Assembly: GCA_027972325.1 (NCBI GenBank)
Contig: JAPMOS010000074.1
Coordinates: forward strand, 62,001 to 126,000
DNA: 64,000 bases
DNA from: Paratrimastix pyriformis
Lineage: Eukaryota > Preaxostyla > Paratrimastigidae
Direction of reading: 5' to 3'
Part shown: positions 29,833 to 55,138 of the stretch, in pieces
How positions within the stretch are numbered: position 1 is the first letter of the stretch
Layout: each line of letters opens with the position of its first letter
Notes under the pieces: model-generated
The model's database searches: none
Told to the model about the DNA's origin: nothing
The model's input: only the letters and a program-made list of their open reading frames with translations
Translations under genes and position numbers: made by a program

Positions 29833-32800
29833 ATGATTGTTGGAGAACACCCACTATTGGCCCCACGAGCAGCCCCACTTCGCGACCGTGTGGGGCGATC
29901 TGTTCAGCTCGCATCAAACCTTTATAAATTTTCTTTGACTCCAAGTCCGCTTTCGCTCACTGCGAGATCTCTTCATGCCGCTTCTGTAGACACAACATTC
30001 CACGAATATAATGTTCGCTTCATCCCTGAACAAAGTGCTTCTCGCATGGAGGCACTCATTCGGGTGGTCATGCGCCAAAAATTTGCTGACGCCATGCGTC
30101 TGTGTGCTCAATCCCATCGCACCCGCAGTGACATTTTTTGGATAAACTAGGAGACAAATTTTTCACCAACGTGAGACGAGAGGCCACATCTGCGCACTGT
30201 TTTTGCACCGAGTGCTTCGACCCTTTCGAAGCCATCGTCAACACCGCCCGCCCTGGGGCGCCCGAGTCCCCATGCACGGTCATCTTCGACCTGGTCTGGC
30301 TGCGCATGCTTTCAAGCTTGCCTGATTCACCTCCCTCTAGATGGGGAGCCACTCGGGGGTTCCGCATCCCGTTCTCCGCGTCTGTGGTCCATCCCCCCGA
30401 CGTTCGGTCAGCTCATCCCCGTCTATGCGCAGATTGCCTTCGAGAAGGCCCTGGGGAAGATGGGCCTCGTGGAAATGGTGCACAACATGTACGATCCCAA
30501 AGCGTCCGTTCCCTCGGGCCCACCTGTCCGCGCTCACTCACGTCCCCCACCCCTCAGCGCGCGTCAGATTCCTCGTGCGCCTTTCGAGCTGTGGCCAGGC
30601 TTTGCGGCCACTCCGACTCAGGTCCGCCCGCTGCCTTTTGAACGAACGGGATCTGGTGCGCGGGGCTTCTTCTGACGGCCCGCCCGAACCCCTCCTCGCA
30701 GACCACTGGTGGCCTCTGCTTGGCCGTTGATGTCTCGTATCGCCTCCTGAGAACCGGTCTGGCCACACGAGGCCGGGGGAGTGCGGCCAAGCTCACTTTT
30801 CTTCTATTTGTTCTGTTGGGCGCGGCTCTTCCCGCAGATACTGTTCTGGACGAGCTGCGCCGCATCCGGTCGCTCAACCCCAAGTCGGCCGAGGACTTCG
30901 CACACCGGATGGCACACATCCTCGTCATCACCCGGTCCGTCGTCAAACCTTCTCCATCCCTTCGGGACGCTGCTCCCCCCGCATCCTCCCCTCTTCTTCC
31001 CTTCCCCTCATGCCATCCCCTGACCTCGGGCTGTGTGTATCAGGTACAACAACTGCACGTACCGAATCACGGGAGTCGAGCTGGACAAGAACCCCACCAA
31101 GACCTTCCCCCGCCGCATCCCCGGCACGAAGCCCCCACGTCTGCTGCCCCCTCCCGGCCGTGGATCCACCATCTGATCTCGTGCCTATCTCACTCCCACA
31201 ACCCCCGACTCCCGCACTGCCCCTGGCAGGCGTCGAGGAGGTCACCTTCGAGAATTACGTCCAGTCCCGCTACGGGGCCCAGACGAAGGACCACCGTCAG
31301 CCCCTGGTCCGGGCCATGCCCACCCGTGGGCCCAAGTCCGAGGTGCTGCTCATCCCCGGTCCGCCTCCCGTCCCCCTCCTTCAATAGAAGACAAGCGAGC
31401 GCGAAACGACATAACTCAGAGCCACCCGCACGATCCGGTGTGTTGCGCAAACAGGGGCTGTCTCCGCGGGAAATGCATTTGGGACAAGACGATGTCTTCT
31501 CTCATCGCTCGTGTGAATGATGGGTCCCGTGGGGTGGGGCAGAGCACCTCTTCCTGACGGGCCTCACGGACGAGGTGCGCAGCGACTTCCGCCTGATGAA
31601 GAGCATCAAGGACTGCCAGGACACCAACCCCCGGGGCCGCTTCCAGTCCATCGGGGACCTCATCCAGAAACTCGACCGCCAGGGGCGCGAAGTCTGCATC
31701 TCCCGCCCCTCCTCCTCCCGGTCGTCTCACATTGATCTCCCTTTCTCGTGGGCCAACAGGAGCTCGCCAAATTTGGGATCAGTTTCGACCGACATGGGCT
31801 GGCCGTCCAAGGCCGGGTGCTGCCGCCCCAGAGGATCGTCTTCGGCAACATGACCGTCTCCACAGGCGGTCCGGTGCTCCCCGCCTCCGCCACGTCTCGT
31901 CCTTCCCCATGCTTGCTCATGCTCCCCTTCTCTGTCCATGCGCTCTCGCCTGCTGTCGCCTTGCCCTTTGTTCGTCTCCCTGCAGCCGACTGGTCCCGGG
32001 CCTTCCACACGTCCAACCTGCTCGAGGGGAAGCCCCTCAACAAGTCTGACCTCGCCTCCTCAGTCTCGGGGCGTGAGATCTTGTTCATCGGGATGACGGC
32101 CTCACCCTCCATCGCCCCTCCATCGCCCCTCCCTCTCGGCCCCTTCCCCCTCTCCCCCAGTTGGATGATCTTCTTCCCAGAAAATCAGGGCCACGTCGCC
32201 CACAAGGTCCGACCCTCCTCCTCCCCTTCCCACACCATTCCGTTCCCATCACATGCCTCCTCCCCGCTCGTCCACAAACCCACCAACTGAACCGACTCAC
32301 CCCCTCACGCCGTCCCCCCAGTTTGTGGGCGATCTGCGCCGTGTCGCGCACGATGTTCCCGTGGGCGAGCCGGTCTTCTGCCCTTGCCGCGGTCTGCGCT
32401 TTCCCCCTCCCCGACCCGAGTGAGGGAACGTGGTCGCGAGCGACCCGGGCTGACCACCTGTCGGCCCTCTCTGTGCCCCTGCAGGCGACTTGCCCGAGGA
32501 TGTCGATGGGACGCTCGAGCAGGTCGGTCGGGCCCTCCTCTGGCCCTTCTCCTCCCATCCATCCGACACGCCGCCCGCCATTCCCCTGGCTCGGCCCAAG
32601 GCCCACTCGTCACCTCTGCCTCTCTTCGGATTCTTCTGCCTCTCCGTTTCTGTCCCGCAGGCCTGCAACCAAGGCAGGCCGCCCCAGATCGCAGTGGTCG
32701 TGCTGCCCGACAAGGACAAGGAGCGCTACAAGAAGGTCCGCCAGACCGCGCCTTGGCCCCCCTGGCCCATTGGCTCCCCCCCCCCCGCCCCCACCACCAC

Positions 32801-35143
32801 CACCACCACCCACCACCCACCACCCACCACCCACCACCCACCACCCACCACCCACCACCACCACCACCACCACCACCACCACCACCACCACCACCACCAC
32901 CACCACCACCACCACCACGACCCACCCCACCACCACCACCTTTGTCCTCTCATCACACCGCTGTTCGCGGCTCGTAGATCAAGCAGCTGTGCGTGCCCAT
33001 CCCGGCCCGACCAGGCGAGCCGCCCTCCTGGAAGCCGAAGCCCATCCCGACCCAGTGCGTCCAAGCCGAGTCCGTTCCCCTCGCCCCACACACCCCAGAT
33101 CTGTGCTGGCATCGCTTGACTGCCACCACCACACTCTTCATCGCGTCTGACCATCACCACCGCCCTGTGCTTCGTGGCCAGATCGCTGGAGAAGGGCCTC
33201 TCGGTCACCACCAAGCTGTGGATCCAGATGCAGGCCAAGATGGGTGGCGTCCCTTGGGGCGTCCAGGTCCGCTGCCCGCTGCCCGCTGCCCGCTGCCCGC
33301 TGCCCGCTGCCCGCTGCCCGCTGCCCGCTGCCCGCTGCCCGCTGCCCGCTGCCCGCTGCCCGCTGCCCGCTGCCCGCTGCCCGCTGCCCGCTGTCCCGCT
33401 GCCCGCTGTCCCGCTGCCCGCTGCCCGCTGCCCGCTGCCCGCTGCCCGCTGCCGCTCAGGTTGTACACCCCGCAAGCAGCTCAAATTCCGTTAATCACTG
33501 CGCTCCGTTGCTCGTGGTGTCGCGCGGGTGGTGCGCAGCTGCCCGTTGAGTCGTTTATGGTCGTCGGGGTGGACGTCTCCACGTCCAAGGAGCAGACGGC
33601 CGTGGGGCTGACGGCCTCCTTCGACCGCTCCGCCACCCGATACTTCTCGCGGGCCATGGGCCAGGCCACCGGCACACAGGACCCCCTCATGATCCCCACC
33701 ACCATGCCCCCCATCGTGCCCAGGCTACAGCGGTCCGCGGTCGCTGCTTTGACTTCTCGCGGGGGTGGGGGGTGAGGCGGGGGGCGAGGGGGGTGGGTGG
33801 GGTGGAGGAGAGGCACCTCCCTCCAGCTCCCCCGTGTCGCGTTGCTCACGCACCCATCTCTCGATGCGGCCGGGTGGGCGGGTGGGCGGGTGGGCGGTTG
33901 GGCAGTATCATCGAAAGCGCGCTGGTGGAATACGCCAAGAACAACCGGGACACCCTCCCGAAGATGATCCTCCTCTACCGCAACGGGTCTGGCTCCACCA
34001 CCACTGCCACGCTTCTGCGATGCGCATGGGGGGCTGTGTGGATGGTGCCCAGGGGCGCGTGCCCACATGCACGGGTCATGCGCTTCCTCGGATCCGTGCT
34101 TCTCACCTCCTTCCACCCACCCACCCACCCACCCCGTGTGACGGCAGGGCGGGCCTGGACCAGTTCCGCAAGCTGCTCACCCTGGAGGTGCCGCTCATCT
34201 ACCAGGCATGCGACGCCGTCAGGCCGGGTCCGGCTTACTTCCCAGTTGGGCCATCTCACTCCGCCCTACCTCACTCCCTGCAGGTGGCGGGTACCGGCCC
34301 AAGGTCGCCTACATCGCCATGCGCAAGAAGACCAACACCCGCTTCGTCCTGGCCGACGGTCTGCTCAACTTTCGGGGCCTCATCAACACATCATCCAATC
34401 ATCAGCCATCAGCACCAATCTCGCGACTATCGCCACCTCACCACCATCATCCAATCATCACCATCACCATCACCGCCCCAGATCATCATCCAGATCATCA
34501 TCCAGACCATCATCCAGATCATCATCCAGATCATCATCCAGATCATCATCCAGACCATCATCCAGATCATCATCCAGATCATCATCCAGATCATCATCCA
34601 GATCATCATCCAGATCATCATCCAGATCATCATCCAGATCATCATCATTCCCTGCGTGCAGGATACTCGAACGCACCCCCGGGGACGGTCATCGACGACC
34701 CTGCGGCCTGCATGCCGGGCCTCTACGACTTCTACCTCATCAGCCAGTCGGTCGCCCCGGGTCCGCCCTTTTCCCGGCGCTCCTTCTGAACTGACACCTC
34801 TTTCGCTGCTCAGCAACCACGGCGAGTCCGGTGCATTACACTGTCCTCAGGTCTGACCGTGATTGGTCGCCTTCCACACTCCCCTTGTCCTTCTTCCTAG
34901 CGATAATACTGGATTGCCATCGGATTATATGCAGATGTTTACATACCGACTCTGTCACACGTACTACAATTGGAGTGGTACAGTCTCCCAGCCAGGAGTC
35001 ATTCAGTATGCTCACCGTCTGGCCCAGATGCTCACCGATGTCTACGTGTCTGTGTGGGAATTGGCGCCCCTGACTCAACTCCTTTTCTCCATAGACGCAA
35101 CGCCCCCCATTCTCAACTCCAACACTGCCTTCATTTTTTGTAA
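29833..35143 (+). CDS. Argonaute/Piwi-family protein
   Basis: The ATG is at 29833. About 20 introns are removed, nearly all beginning GTCYG. The Argonaute domains then appear in order. N domain: VQLASNLYKF, then HEYNVRFIPEQSASR. Linker: FEKALGKMGLVEM and FELWPGFAATPTQ. PAZ at about 31.0-31.4 kb: YRITGVELDKNPTKTF and VEEVTFENYVQSRYG. LFLTGLTDEVRSDFRLMKS and LPPQRIVFGNMTVS follow. MID: QIAVVVLPDKDKERYKK, IKQLCVPIP, PTQCVQAE. PIWI from 33.5 kb: MVVGVDVSTS, LPKMILLYRNG, RPKVAYIAMRKKT, DFYLISQ, SPVHYTVL, YRLCHTYYNW, and the C-terminal HFL at the stop codon 35141-35143. The first Asp and the His of the slicer tetrad are present, but the usual YRDG reads YRNG (near 33980). It is likely an RNA-guided silencing protein, possibly without slicing. 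Exon edges between 30.1 and 30.5 kb are uncertain. Confidence 0.92.
32795..32938. repeat. CCACCCA then CAC repeat
   Basis: A 7-bp CCACCCA array grades into a CAC trinucleotide run inside an Argonaute intron. It is the same unit as in the LRR gene intron at 21.93-22.06 kb. Confidence 0.9.
33267..33457. repeat. CTGCCCG 7-bp minisatellite at a splice donor
   Basis: About 25 copies of CTGCCCG, with two CTGTCCCG variants, begin directly at the intron donor (GTCCG followed by CTGCCCG) after the Argonaute exon ending GGVPWGVQ. The array fills most of the intron before the exon that starts the PIWI catalytic core. Confidence 0.9.
34479..34648. repeat. CAGATCATCATC 12-bp repeat
   Basis: About 14 copies of a 12-bp unit (two copies read CAGACCATCATC) fill an Argonaute intron between the LADG and YSNAPPG exons. 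Confidence 0.95.
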
Positions 35144-35241
35144 AGTGTTGGGAAGCGAAAGAAGAGTGCCTGTTCGGTGTTGTCATCATGTCAGGTCGGC
35201 GCGGACTTCTCCTTTGAGGCGCGAGCGGCAAAGTTGATTCG

Positions 35242-37254
35242 ATGGGGTCGAATTTTAGCACACCCGCGGCGGCGGCCGGGACAACACCAAAAATCATCGA
35301 TCCTGCCACCTATCTCAATCAATTGATTGAGGATGTCCGAAAACGCACCCCAGACACTACCCCCGTTAATGCAGTCCCCTATCCTTTCCCTGTCGCGTCC
35401 CGCCCAAAAATTATTTTCGACACTGACCTGGGGAGCGATGTGGATGACGCATTGGCTCTGTTACTGTTGATGCACCTTCCGCAATCCGACTATGAACTTT
35501 TGGGCATCACGACCGTGTATGGCTGTTCCGAACTGCGAACCCTCGTGACCCGCAGGATTCTCGAGGCAGCAGGATGGGACAAGAAAGTCCCATTGATTTG
35601 TGGAGTGGTCTGTTCTCCCAAGATTATTATTGGCCTGCACTGATTCTGCATCAGGGAGCCCCCCTGACGCGCGATTCCGAAACTGTTTGGCACTCTCACA
35701 CAGAAGGCCGTGGACTTTGCACCGAAGAAGAAATTCGTGCCAATTTTAACACATGGAAATCATTAACGGCACCTCATGATGAGGTCTCGCCTTGCTGCCC
35801 ACCAACACCACTTTCCCATCATTTTCCTTTTACAGGCTGCCCGGTTCATTATTGAGCAAGTCCAAAAGTACCCCGGTCAAGTCATCATTCTGGCGCTGGG
35901 CGCCCTATCCAATGTGGCTCTGGCCCTGCGCATTCAGCCCGATATTGCCTCGAAGATCCACCACATTGCATTCATGGGCTCGGGCGTCCGATGCACAGTC
36001 TGCTTTTCCCCCCCCTTTCCGATCCTTCCTCCATCCTTCCACTTTTTCTCCATGTGGCTATCACCTCGGGGTCGGTTAGCACGAGAACCCCCGCCCGGAG
36101 TACCGCCCCGTGGAGCGTCACGTGGGCCACCGCTCGCGGGCCTCGCACAACATTCGATGCGACATCGGCGCTGCCATCGAGGTTCGTCCCATGCCGACCT
36201 CCCCTCCACCATCCCCCATTGGCCACCCCATTGGCCAGCCGACGGCTCATTTTGTGGAAACCGTTCCCCACCTGCGGCGGGCCCCCCAGGTGTTCGGCAA
36301 CGTGAACGTGCGGGTGCAGGTCGTCTCGAACGACGTCACCTGCCGCTGTTGGCTGCAGGGCCTCCACAGCTTGGCCCTCTTCCGGGCAGGCGGTCCGTCC
36401 GCCCCGCCGACATACCCCCAACTTGTCCATATCCCCCCGTCCCATTTCATCAGCCCCACGTCAACCCCATCAGCACCTCTCTTGATCGTGTCTCCATATC
36501 CCCCCCCCCCCCCCCTCCCCCCTCCCCCCATCCCAGGCGGGGTCCTGCCTGCCGACTACACGGTTCCCGAGGGTGTGACCCTGGCCCAGGCCGAGGCGAT
36601 GGCCGCCCGAATGACGGCCGAGGGCCGGGCCGTGGGCGGCTCTACGTCGAGTGGCTCAACTACCGCGCCTCCATCGGCCAAGGTCCGCGCCCAGCCGACC
36701 GGAGGGAGGGCAGAGGGCCACACCTCGAGGATGTATGTGTGTGTGTGTGTGTGTCCATCGGCCAGGGCCCGCGGGGGCGGAAAGGTCGACGATCGGGCAT
36801 CCGGTGCTCAAACTTCTACCCCCCCCCCCCCCCCCCCCTTCATTTTCCCCCAGGCGTGGCCACCTGCCCCCACGACCCGCTGACCCTTGCCGAGGCCCTG
36901 TACCCGTCCCGCTTCGTGCGGTACGTCCCGGGGCGCCTCCTCATCCACCGCGAGACAGCCGAGACTGACTTCGTGGTCGACACGAGTGCCGCCCCTGCCG
37001 GCAGCCCGGCCGGGCCGGCGCGGCACTGGCTGGGGGTCGCCATTGACCAGGCCGCCTTCCACGGGTGGCTGGACCCCCTGCTGACCATGCCCCGCCAGGG
37101 CGAGGAGGCCGGGGCGGCCCCCATGGAGATCCTGCCCGAGGCCGGAAACAGCAGCCCCGCGGCGGCCAGCCCGACCGTCGCCAGCCCGACTCCGTCTCCG
37201 CACCTCCCGGCGACCCCTGCCCAGATCCCGGTCGTCGCCGCCGCCTCGAACTGA
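35242..37254 (+). CDS. Inosine-uridine nucleoside hydrolase family protein
   Basis: The ATG is at 35242. Residues 57-70 carry the family signature (IIFDTDLGSDVDDA), the Asp cluster that binds Ca2+ and ribose. Further landmarks after introns starting GTCTGT, GTCTCG and GTCCGA are VPLICGV joined to GAPLTRDSE, HTEGRGL, VIILALGALSNVALAL, IHHIAFMGSG, SHNIRCDIGAAIE and CPHDPLTLAEALYPSRF. The last part is a Pro/Ala-rich tail ending at 37254. The enzyme should cleave the N-glycosidic bond of ribonucleosides in purine or pyrimidine salvage. The N-terminus MGSNFS fits an N-myristoylation signal, so membrane attachment is possible (inference). Exon edges between 36.2 and 36.8 kb are approximate. The stop of the Argonaute gene is only 98 bp upstream. 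Confidence 0.88.
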
Positions 37255-39784: not shown

Positions 39785-47028
<7,244 letters not shown>

Positions 47029-47230: not shown

Positions 47231-50092
<2,862 letters not shown>

Positions 50093-50917: not shown

Positions 50918-53900
50918 GATGATGGATGATGGATGATGATGATGATCGGATGTGATGATCGGATGATGATGATCGGATGATGATGATCGGATGATGATCG
51001 GATGTGATGATGGTGATCGGAGGATGTGATGATCGGATGATCGGATGATGACCGAATGATGCTGATGATGCGCGTGAAGAATGGATGATGGGAGGAATGA
51101 GGGGGGAGGGCGAAGGAGGAGGAGGAGGGGGGTGGGGGGGTGGGGGGGTGGCAGGGGATCACGGACGGGCGCTGCTGGGGTGGTGGCCCGCCTGCGAACT
51201 CGTTTGCCGCCCCTGCGAGGCGAACAGACAGGTTGCGGGGGGTGCGGCGGACGGGAGGGGATGAGCAAAAGGGCAGGTCGCCAAGAGGGACGCCTCGTGA
51301 GCAAACACCAATCACCGCCCCAACTCGATGGCGAGTCCATCATCCCATCATCAGACTCCATGCCAGTGTCGTCCTCCATGGCCCACCCATGGTGCGCGTG
51401 CAGTAGTATGGCGGGCGTGGGGGACCTGTCTCCTCGTCGCCCCGCGGGGGCGGCCTGACGGCGGGCGCCTGGCCGGGGGGCAGAGGCGGCGGGGCGAAGC
51501 CCGAATCGAAGATGCTCGGCTGCCGGGCGAGCAGGGCCGATTGGACTGCCGACACACAGATACGCAGACGACAGCACAGACAGACAGCACAGACAGATAG
51601 CACATACGACAGCACATACGACAGCACATACGACAGACAGACAGACAGCACAGACAGAACATACGACAGCACAGACAGCACAGACAGCACATACGTACAG
51701 CACAGGCAGCACAGGCAGCACAGACAACACAGACAGCACATACGACAGACAGCAGACAGACAGCACAGAGTGACAGCACAGACAGACAGACATATGAGTG
51801 ATTGGTCAGATGTGGGGGGGAGCAGGTCGACGATCCGGGGGTGATGCAGACCCTGCGAGGACTGGGTGAACCTGACCAGGAGGGAGCGGAGCTGGTCCCG
51901 GGTCCGGTCCGAGGTGGACTGCAGGATGCCCTCCCGCTGCAGGGCCTTGGCGATGATCAGGGCGGCGTCCTCGCCCGGGGCCACTTGCAGGTAGAGCCGC
52001 ACCCTGACCCATCCCCACCACACACCACACACACGTCGAAACCGGCCCATCAAGAGGATCATCAGGTCATCATCCGATCATTATCCGATCATCCACCACC
52101 ATTTACCATCCTCCTCCCTCCTCCCTCCCTCCCTCCTCCTCCTCCTCCTCCTCCTCCTCCTCCTCCTCCTCCTCCTCCTCCTCCTCCTCCTCCTCCTCCT
52201 CCTCCTCCTCCTCCTCCTCCTCCTCCTCCTCCTCCTCCTCCTCCTCACCCACGTCCATCATCATCCAGGGACGGACCTGCCGGTGAATGTGTCATCGTCC
52301 TGGTCGGGCCCCCCGAACGCAGCTGGCGACTTCAGGTTCACCTGGCCAGGGCAGGGCAGGGCAGGGAAGGTACCACACAACGATGTGGTTGGAATGAAAT
52401 GTTGCAACAGGTGCCTGGGGTGAGCCCAGATTCGCTGGGCGTCGTTGATCATGATGGTAATGATGATGATGGTGGTGATGGTAATGATGGTGGTGATGGT
52501 AATGATGGTGGTGATGGTAATGATGGTAGTGATGGTAGTGATGGTAGTGATGGTAATGATGGTAATGATGGTGGTGATGGTGGTGATGGTGGTGATGGTG
52601 GTGATGGTGGTGATGGTAATGATGGTAATGATGGTAATGATGGTAATGATGGTGGTGATGGTAATGATGGTGGTGCTGGTAATGATGGTAATGATGGTAA
52701 TGATGGTAATGATGGTGGTGATGGTAATGATGGTAATGATGGTGGTGATGGTAATGATGGTGGTGATGGTAATGATGGTGGTGATGGTAATGATGGTGGT
52801 GATGGTAATGATGGTAATGATGGTGGTGATGGTAATGATGGTGGTGATGGTAATGATGGTAATGATGGTAATGATGGTGGTGATGGTAATGATGGTAATG
52901 ATGGTGGTGATGGTAATGATGGTGATGGTAATGATGGTGGTGATGGTAATGATGGTAATGATGGTAATGATGGTGGTGATGGTAATGATGGTGGTGATGG
53001 TAATGATGGTAATGATGGTAATGATGGTGGTGATGGTAATGATGGTGGTGATGGTAATGATGGTGGTGATGGTAATGATGGTGGTGATGGTAATGATGGT
53101 GGTGATGGTAATGATGGTAATGATGGTGGTGATGGTAATGATGGTAATGATGGTGGTGATGGTGGTGATGGTAATGATGGTGGTGATGGTAATGATGGTG
53201 GTGATGGTAATGATGGTAATGATGGTAATGATGGTGGTGATGGTAATGATGGTGGTGATGGTAATGATGGGAATGATGGTGGTAATGATGGTGGTGTGAT
53301 GGTAATGATGGTGGTGATGGTAATGATGGTGGTGATGGTAATGATGGTGGTGATGGTAATGATGGTGGTGATGGTAATGATGGTGGTGATGGTAATGATG
53401 GTGGTGATGGTGGTGATGGTAATGATGGTGGTGATGGTAATGATGGTAATGATGGTAATGATGGTAATGATGGTGGTGATGGTAATGATGGTAATGATGG
53501 TAATGATGGTAATGATGGTGGTGATGGTAATGATGGTGGTGATGGTAATGATGGTGGTGATGGTAATGATGGTAATGATGGTGGTGATGGTAATGATGGT
53601 AATGATGGTAATGATGGTAATGATGGTGGTGATGGTAATGGTAATGGTGATGGTAATGATGGTGGTGATGGTAATGATGGTATGGTAATGATGGTAATGA
53701 TGGTAATGATGGTGGTGATGAATGATGGTGTGGTAATGGTATGATGGTAATGGTAATGATGGTAAATGATGAAATGATGGTAATGATGGTAATGATGGTA
53801 ATGATGGTAGTGATGGTAATGATGGTGGTGATGGTAATGATGGTAATGGTAATGATGGTAATGATGGTGATGGTAATGATGGTGGTGATGGTAATGATGG

Positions 53901-55138
53901 TAATGATGGTAATGATGGTGGTGATGGTAATGATGGTGGTGATGGTAATGATGGTAATGATGGTGGTGATGGTAATGATGGTGGTGATGGTAATGATGGT
54001 GGTGATGGTAATGATGGTAATGATGGTAATGATGGTGGTGATGGTAATGATGGTAACGATGATGGTGGCGGTGATGTGGCGGTGGTGATGGTGATGACGG
54101 TGACGGTGGCGGTGATGAGTGGGATGGTGACGAATGAGTGCTCGCTGGTGCTGCTGCTGCGGATGCGGATGCGGATGCTGATGCTGATGATCGTGTGGGT
54201 TCGGGCGGGGGCAGGGGTGCTGACCTTGAGGACGGGCATGCCGGTGTTGTCGTGCAGGCCCGGGTAGCGCTGCCGTAGGTGGTCGATGAGGGCGGCCCGG
54301 ACCCCGCCCCCCCCGCCGGCCGTAATGTTGGTCGGCTCCTGCGAGGCGGTGTCCAGCCCTGGTCGAGGCCACACCACCCATCCCAGGAGCCGAGACGACG
54401 GAGTTGGTGATGATGATGATGACTGGGCGATGATGACTGGGGGGAGGGTGATGATGACGTGATGGCGACTGGGGTGAATGCTGACTGGGCGATGGTGATC
54501 ATGGCTGGGCGGTAGTGGCTGGGCGGGTGATGCTGACTGGGCAGTGACGCCGCGGACCCTGCTCGTTGAGGTAAATATCGTTGAGGGCCTGGCAGGTCTC
54601 CAGAACGCGCTCTGCCGTGTCCTGCGGGCGGGCAGGAGCATAAAGAGCGCAACGGGTCAGGGCCAGAATAACGAGTGCCGCGGCAAGGGTGGCCTCTAGA
54701 TGAGACAGCTGAGATGTAGGAGGCAGCGTAAGGAACACAGTGTCCGATTGGGTCCTGCTTTGACGTGCTTTCTTGTGTCTCAGTCAGCGTTTTTGTCCGT
54801 GTTCATTGTCTGTGTGTCTGTCTGTCTGCGCCTCAGTCAGCGGTTTCTGTCCGTGTTCATTGTGACTGATGATGGAAAGGGTGGCATGCCGGGTGTGCGT
54901 CTTGGGGAGGGCGTCGACCGACCGCCAGCCCATCGAGGCGCTCGTGGATGGGGGGGCACTGGAACGTGTACACGACGCCCTTGTAGACGAAGTGGTCGGG
55001 GGGCGGGTAGAGGATCTTCTGCGGCACACCCAACAGCGTCAGGGCCTCCTGCAGCCGCGCTGACTGCTCGTTGCCCGGGCCCTGGAAGACCGCGGGCACT
55101 GCAGAGGACCGGAGGGCCAGAGGCGAGAGGAGGTTTCG

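Follow-up and report, generated by a model that had tools for sequence, protein, structure and literature searches.

Introns at the Argonaute locus

Paratrimastix pyriformis, an anaerobic, free-living flagellate, belongs to Preaxostyla, within Metamonada. The DNA analysed here (i.e. the window) is a stretch of 64,000 nucleotides (C468:62001-126000; contig JAPMOS010000074.1) of the 56-Mb genome in 495 contigs, and its Piwi/Argonaute-like gene drew attention to the way in which introns of this organism begin. Their donors (i.e. 5' splice sites) mostly read GTCYG rather than GTRAG and, very probably, have co-evolved with an altered 5' end of the U1 small nuclear RNA (snRNA). The published assembly is described as 60.9% GC and 56.6 Mb in 633 scaffolds (PMC10703272).

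The published piwi-like protein of P. pyriformis (P0121, 918 aa), retrieved using a hand-spliced query, maps onto positions 29833-35140 with 918/918 residues exact. GT or GC with AG was permitted in this mapping, and all 23 introns of the published model begin with GTCYG. Published gene models were produced by Augustus after retraining on manually curated models, and drew on PASA transcripts and on intron hints from RNA-seq (PMC10703272); they are thus part transcript-based, with predictor bias still possible. An earlier note on the letters of the window had proposed GTCYG as the intron start and had given coordinates for 27 donors (20 in the Argonaute gene, five in a NOTUM-family gene and two in a nucleoside hydrolase gene). 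All 27 read GTCCG or GTCTG, and 17 of the 20 Argonaute donors recur among the 23 of the published model, which reads through the other three (i.e. 30757, 31869 and 33070).

Two gene models of the locus were also built, a position-weight-matrix (PWM) model with exon and splice scores taken from chaperonin (CCT) and HSP70 genes, and a flat-donor model demanding GT only. The PWM model used 18 of the 20 Argonaute donors of the note plus 11 unlisted ones, and the flat-donor model 12 of the 20 plus 21 others (overlap P about 2e-7); 17 and 11, respectively, of the 23 published donors were recovered. The published model and these two disagree on some acceptors and a few donors. A path forced through all 20 donors without a coding model was open, but had poor acceptors and was dropped. 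In the following rows, 'listed' marks donors of the earlier note and 'published' marks the P0121 model.

29833-35140 (+): Piwi/Argonaute-like gene, 23 introns with GTCYG donors; exact map of P0121
29945-29989 (+): intron GTCCGC..TGTAG; published, not listed
30098-30150 (+): intron GTCTGT..ACTAG; published, not listed
30294-30340 (+): intron GTCTGG..TCTAG; published, donor in both gene models, not listed
30380-30432 (+): intron GTCTGT..CGCAG; published, not listed
30504-30557 (+): intron GTCCGT..CTCAG; listed, published; PWM model takes acceptor 30567
30622-30701 (+): intron GTCCGC..CGCAG; listed, PWM model, published
30757-30762 (+): donor GTCTGG; listed, used by both gene models, read through in published model
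30935-31043 (+): intron GTCCGT..ATCAG; listed, both gene models, published
31139-31229 (+): intron GTCTGC..GGCAG; listed, both gene models, published
31359-31542 (+): intron GTCCGC..GGCAG; listed, both gene models, published
31692-31759 (+): intron GTCTGC..AACAG; listed, both gene models, published
31869-31874 (+): donor GTCCGG; listed, PWM model only, read through in published model
32044-32160 (+): intron GTCTGA..CCCAG; listed, PWM model, published
32207-32321 (+): intron GTCCGA..CCCAG; listed, both gene models, published
32392-32484 (+): intron GTCTGC..TGCAG; PWM model, published, not listed
32736-32977 (+): intron GTCCGC..CGTAG; listed, published; ends at 33055 in PWM model
33070-33075 (+): donor GTCCGT; listed, used by both gene models, read through in published model
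33145-33181 (+): intron GTCTGA..GCCAG, 37 nt; published model only
33267-33589 (+): intron GTCCGC..CCAAG; listed, published; ends at 33459 in PWM model
33733-33905 (+): intron GTCCGC..GGCAG; listed, PWM model, published
33987-34147 (+): intron GTCTGG..GGCAG; listed, both gene models, published
34228-34283 (+): intron GTCCGG..TGCAG; listed, both gene models, published
34359-34661 (+): intron GTCTGC..TGCAG; listed, published, in neither gene model
34761-34813 (+): intron GTCCGC..CTCAG; listed, gene modelling, published
34851-34900 (+): intron GTCTGA..CCTAG; listed, published, in neither gene model
35048-35094 (+): intron GTCTGT..CATAG; listed, published; both gene models end it at 35145
35608-35613 (+): donor GTCTGT, nucleoside hydrolase gene; listed, letters and U1 energy only
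35986-35991 (+): donor GTCCGA, nucleoside hydrolase gene; listed, letters and U1 energy only
47543-47548 (+): donor GTCCGA, NOTUM-family gene; listed, letters and U1 energy only
47657, 47757, 47993, 49325 (+): further NOTUM-family donors; listed, letters and U1 energy only

Donors were placed in other genes by protein homology, using Pfam matches to CCT/chaperonin and HSP70 exons (83 of 86 rows; one of 47 CCT rows, on contig C51 and lacking a neighbour, and two of 39 HSP70 rows, on contig C441 near 950 kb, were left out). All GT..AG introns with ends at most 40 bases from the matches were accepted at a junction if the frame was kept and the profile length agreed to within one residue, and no donor preference beyond +2 was applied. 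Fifty neighbouring exon pairs were tested (a further 18 with large or overlapping gaps were skipped), giving 40 unique donors in 14 genes, four ambiguous junctions and six without a solution; GT..AG joins, as demanded by the method, were open at 44 of the 50 junctions. The unique donors comprised 17 GTCTG, eight GTCCG, four GTTTG, three GTCGG and eight other pentamers seen once each. GTCYG therefore accounts for 25/40 donors as compared to 6.0% of the background, i.e. all 6637 GT of the window on both strands (P 4e-21), and GTRAG for none of the 40. Position +3 was C in 32, T in seven and G in one, a pyrimidine frequency of 39/40 against 49% in the background. Position +4 was T in 22, C in 10, G in seven and A in one, T being enriched over its background of 19% and C remaining at its background of 28%. 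G was found at -1 in 32 and at +5 in 35 donors, and T at +6 in 19. The canonical preference for a purine at +3 and A at +4 is not followed, each occurring in one donor of 40. The earlier proposal thus captured the dominant donor and the retained G at +5, but the real consensus is broader than GTCYG: C at +3 is the majority base and not the only one, and the pyrimidine proposed at +4 resolves into a preference for T.

The sole donor with G at +3 comes from a join whose acceptor seemingly lies inside coding sequence, and at least three of the 40 donors, all counted throughout, are doubtful (GTGTC and GTCGT on contig C223, with acceptors ending in GAG, and GTTGC on contig C486). A stricter first count, which barred stops anywhere in the matched exon pieces, tested 51 pairs and returned 30 unique, three ambiguous and 18 unsolved junctions; all 30 unique donors had a pyrimidine at +3 and 16 were GTCYG. 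The stop check was limited to the vicinity of the junction in the later count because several matched pieces run through an intron. A hand-spliced CCT5 (contig C112) was identical to the published P. pyriformis protein at 543/543 residues, and exact mapping of its seven introns gave GTCTG four times and GTCCG, GTTCG and GTCCC once each. No internal gaps were present in the alignment of this protein with P0003, which is encoded on a 1762-nt contig. The introns are of the U2-type GT-AG kind, with GT..AG ends, an unchanged U6 ACAGAGA and an unchanged U5 loop (GCCTTTTAC in the three copies read of seven). The U12-type donor motif is RTATCCTT, of which there is none on either strand of the window, the donors described here being GTYNG.

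A scan of the window for coding-to-noncoding transitions found GTCYG at 37 of 200 GT sites as compared to 6.0% of all GT, and no excess of GTRAG (2/200 versus 1.8%). Control scans with the remaining 15 dinucleotides had mainly repeats (e.g. ATCAT and CATCA) as their top words. Both GTCCG and GTCTG are moderately overrepresented window-wide (z 4.6 and 4.2). The most overrepresented GT pentamer of the window is GTCAG (146 versus 85.5 expected, z 6.5), above GTCCG and GTCTG, and it is used by only one of the 40 placed donors.

U1 genes and their fit to the donors

No family was matched when the window was compared with Rfam at gathering thresholds, the snRNAs lying elsewhere in the genome. A genome search with the Rfam U1 covariance model (RF00003), with the best 41 of 992 candidates scored, recovered eight genes, each on a contig of its own and each aligned over its full length (model positions 1-166, E 4e-13 to 2e-10). 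The 5' end of all eight is AUACAGACCUUG, the family consensus being AUACUUACCUGG. Nucleotides 5-6 are AG in place of UU and nucleotide 11 is U in place of G in every copy, such that ACAGACC, not ACUUACC, stands at the 5' end and the predicted U1 begins AUACAGACC. The first 33 nt are identical among the copies (ATACAGACCTTGCTTGGCCAGAAGCGCGATCAC), and ungapped mean identity is 93% over nucleotides 1-90, as compared to 28% and 26% in the far flanks. The loop of stem-loop 1 reads GAUCAC in all eight genes (GCGATCACACAGGC) and the family consensus contains GAUCA; this GAUCAC loop is the site of U1-70K. At the aligned place of the Sm site, AAUGUUUGG occurs in seven genes and a GAAUGUUUGG context in L008, the human U1 Sm site being AAUUUGUGG (PMC4383343). 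Pattern searches of the genome for a canonical ACUUACC U1 gave no match. A pattern with nucleotides 5-6 left open returned the same eight genes and six further matches, none of which had TT and all of which, judged from 23-41 letters, are unlike U1; the reversed-pattern control gave one match.

In all eight U1 genes the first base of a CCCATAA heptamer lies 59-60 nt upstream of the start, and in eight of nine full-length U2 genes (L021 lacks it) the distance is 58-60 nt. It is also found, usually after a T-run, upstream of all four U6 genes, the three U5 genes read of seven and a U6atac candidate, and may be a common snRNA promoter element. As U1 and U2 both start with ATAC at a like distance from CCCATAA, the assigned U1 5' end is supported. 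Full-length alignment, the GAUCAC loop, the identity among copies and CCCATAA make the eight U1 genes convincing, and they would be expected to yield a functional U1 that pairs with donors in the cell. Two of the eight U1 genes are preceded, at a distance of about 400 bases, by transfer RNA (tRNA) genes (L003:1031-1115 and L004:1007-1079); a tRNA search of the window found none.

The reverse complement of U1 nucleotides 3-11 is AAGGUCUGU. In the 40 homology-placed donors each position from -3 to -1 and from +3 to +6 has one base that is both the commonest and enriched, namely A, A and G before the junction and C, T, G and T after it, in each case the complement of this U1 segment (P 0.0085, 4e-4, 5e-8, 4e-10, 5e-7, 1e-12 and 2e-4, respectively); the partner base A at +7 is present in only 8/40. 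Mean in-register duplex energy for these donors was -8.48 kcal/mol with the P. pyriformis U1 as compared to -3.88 with the canonical U1, and the former gave the better energy in 35/40. Similar differences were observed for the 23 published Argonaute donors (-7.79 versus -3.56; better in 20/23) and for the 27 donors of the earlier note (-7.85 versus -3.88; better in 24/27), the values for all 6637 GT of the window being -2.14 and -1.69. When each of the 16 dinucleotides was placed at U1 nucleotides 5-6 and donors were separated from 2000 sampled other GT, GG ranked first, AG second and UU 12th. The earlier note had guessed at a changed U1, and the A5-G6 found in all eight genes in place of U5-U6 is what donors with C or U at +3 and U at +4 would require, supporting that guess.

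The U6 ACAGAGA, the other snRNA region to which the earlier note had pointed, is unchanged in all four U6 genes found. Within the spliceosome, donor positions +2 and +5 pair with U6 A45 and C42, respectively, and +3 and +4 lie opposite G44 and A43; the usual A or G at +3 makes an initially weak contact with G44 (PMC9803359, PMC11732430). GUCUGU is a full complement of U6 ACAGA at +2 to +6, placing C opposite G44 and U opposite A43. All five letters of the U6 box are matched by 8/40 donors, with a mean of 3.7 matches as compared to 2.05 for all GT. The new U1 end, AU-ACAGA-CC, contains the ACAGA box of U6, so that one pentamer, UCUGU, fits both snRNAs.

A probable rewritten donor code and its rivals

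The pairing data point strongly, though from sequence comparison, to a U1:donor code that has been rewritten in P. pyriformis, U1 and donors having very probably co-evolved. The U1 5' end would have exchanged UU for AG at nucleotides 5-6 and G for U at nucleotide 11, with donors moving to a consensus complementary to the new end, i.e. AAG|GU(C>U)(U)G(U) with AAG|GUCUGU preferred. Pairs would then form between +3 C and G6 (or +3 U by wobble), +4 U and A5, +5 G and C4, and +6 U and A3, and UCUGU at +2 to +6 could engage U1, and later U6, through one and the same set of Watson-Crick pairs. A U6 that already matched may have driven or permitted the change of U1, which would amount to convergence of U1 upon the reading of U6. 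One possible route starts from GUAUG, with U1 nucleotide 5 becoming A and so matching +4 U, and nucleotide 6 becoming G and so matching +3 C; donors with +3 U, wobbling with G6, could be a path to this state or a relic of it. Structure should allow such base changes in U1, since human U1-C makes no base-specific contacts with pre-mRNA (PMC4383343). A further proposal, to which we give somewhat less than an even chance, is that U1 took over the reading head of U6 (i.e. ACUUA became ACAGA), that UCUGU is consequently read twice with the conflict between U1 and U6 preferences gone, and that recoding may have extended to the minor spliceosome.

Several observations weigh against a rewritten code. 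The ambiguous junction on contig C223 offers GTATA, GTGGA or GTTTC and never GTCYG, and canonical U1 binds 5/40 donors better in the duplex model. The C (10/40) and G (7/40) found at +4 are unpaired opposite A5, and, with +4 C so common, GG at U1 nucleotides 5-6 would give a slightly better fit than AG. GTATG (56 versus 32 expected) and GTGAG (113 versus 86 expected) are also overrepresented window-wide and, with the excess of GTCAG, mean that raw pentamer counts alone cannot single out GTCYG. All eight U1 matches (50.8-60.2 bits) fall under the Rfam gathering score of 69.5, such that homology and likely function are claimed rather than formal membership, and at the Rfam threshold the genome would be annotated as lacking U1. 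Folded alone, U1 pairs CAGAC with GUUUG of the Sm site, a pairing that Sm proteins would presumably keep from forming. U1-C was not detected by an exon-wise genome search; the sole zf-U1 match in the genome (L053:1477-1668) was first read as U1-C and proved to be WBP4-like. A METTL16-related exon with a CNPPF motif (L087:1501-1830, minus strand; G000:C332:38824-39153) is kept although donors prefer +4 U. METTL16 is the N6-methyladenosine (m6A) methyltransferase of U6 A43. In Saccharomycotina its presence goes with +4 A and its loss usually accompanies +4 U, with exceptions noted (PMC10581693).

Both changes could be real with U6 or other factors having driven the donors, U1 having followed passively and being now dispensable or weakly used in pairing. 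This alternative, which overlaps with co-evolution in accepting both changes, appears rather unlikely. GUCUGU fully complements an unchanged U6 at +2 to +6, U1-C was not found in the genome search, and U1-associated proteins are reported to be nearly wholly absent from the metamonads studied (PMC6679479). A dispensable U1 would fit poorly, however, with eight near-identical copies sharing an upstream element, or with the fit to U1 of exon positions -3 to -1, which are not read by U6, though U5 could account for these. Deamination of U1 A5 to inosine, by which both U and C at +4 would be read, is improbable: +4 C and T together make up 32/40 and GG, in which inosine is approximated as G, separates donors best of the 16 dinucleotides, but only T is enriched at +4 and a plain A5 suffices.

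There could instead be two donor classes, GTYNG read by the new U1 and GTRAG by a canonical U1 absent from the assembly or overlooked. The draft state of the assembly, the scoring of only the best 41 of 992 U1 candidates, the six unsolved and four ambiguous junctions (one with a GTATA candidate) and the mild GTGAG excess leave some room for this. It is made highly improbable by the absence of GTRAG from the 40 unique junctions in 14 genes, by the coding-to-noncoding scan with its lack of a GTRAG excess, and by the failure of pattern searches to find an ACUUACC U1. An artefact of coding sequence at 61% GC or of gene-finder bias could draw on the window-wide overrepresentation of GTCCG and GTCTG and on the trained predictor behind the published models (PMC10703272). 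Its probability is practically negligible, as homology placement used GT and AG alone and the U1 genes, found independently of the donors, match them.

Known systems and further observations

The P. pyriformis system shares with canonical U1/GURAGU recognition the register, the U1 architecture captured by the covariance model, and G at +1, U at +2, G at +5 and G at -1, and differs in U1 nucleotides 5-6 (AG for UU) and in donor positions +3 (C/U for R) and +4 (U for A). Lineage-wide change of the +4 preference is known from the A to U switches of Saccharomycotina, for which a change of U1 pseudouridine 5 to A was named by the authors as a possible compensation (PMC10581693). ACUUACC was invariant across all U1 candidates there, which came from 227/230 Saccharomycotina genomes and 9/10 outgroups (PMC10581693); in P. 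pyriformis, by contrast, U1 itself is changed at the two nucleotides facing +3 and +4, and METTL16 still has a relative in the genome. The yeast mutant 5'SS-A3c (+3 A to C) is reported to pair hyperstably with U6 G50 and to hinder the transition from step 1 to step 2, a defect that alterations of U6 or Cwc2 relieve (PMC11331412). On the typical yeast donor GUAUGU this mutation gives GUCUGU, the P. pyriformis consensus. P. pyriformis thus appears to have turned a donor that is harmful as a reporter mutation in yeast into its norm.

Altered intron ends or U1 genes have been described elsewhere in other combinations. The diplonemid S. specki has one U1 gene with an altered 5' end, but the conserved end persists in another copy, and the two are reported to suit the canonical donor about equally (PMC12621601), whereas all eight U1 genes found and the donors are changed in P. 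pyriformis. Intron ends of Fritillaria borealis likewise depart from the usual at genome scale, but the 5' end of its U1 is strictly conserved and the authors invoke U2AF duplicates and m6A (PMC13326754). U1 5' ends are conserved in two nucleomorphs, and that of Bigelowiella keeps the motif while its introns have no donor motif past GU (PMC6461891). In the oxymonad Streblomastix strix, also of Preaxostyla, +4 U and +5 G are conserved among 21 introns with A, U and G at +3 to +5 (PMC1501061). Its +3 differs in being A, and a GUAUG-type donor of this kind is a plausible intermediate state.

Pairing of donors with U1 is a known mechanism; rewriting of the U1:donor code is not, as far as the literature covered extends. 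No report of a genome-wide U1/donor exchange was found in searches of open-licence PMC papers. Near-invariance is generally assumed for the U1 5' end, and a compensatory U1 change was sought in more than 200 yeast genomes with none found (PMC10581693). A rewritten code, if real, would be a natural experiment on a rule common to all introns of a genome and would test whether U6, rather than U1, makes the final donor choice. Errors are likely where this genome is annotated with donor models and Rfam thresholds that were derived from other eukaryotes. Were U1 to have taken over the reading of U6, with donors slowing the second step as in yeast (PMC11331412), matching changes would be expected in Prp8, Prp16, Cwc2 or their kin.

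A single U6atac candidate (L088:1501-1633; G000:C445:22122-22254) scored 46.6 bits against a cut-off of 33 and has CCCATAA upstream. It reads AGCCGA where the family consensus is AAAGGA and would predict minor donors like RTATCGGC, of which there are none in the window; it would fit a recoded minor spliceosome. U11 was not found in a genome search. A partial U2 copy (model positions 99-185; L022:1501-1590; G000:C489:69365-69454) lies on a contig that also has two full U2 genes. The window holds 101 rows of simple tandem arrays, overlapping rows counted (e.g. 44576-45402, 48136-49085 and 52451-54061), and arrays at 32791-32940, 33269-33453 and 34478-34646, among others, lie inside introns.

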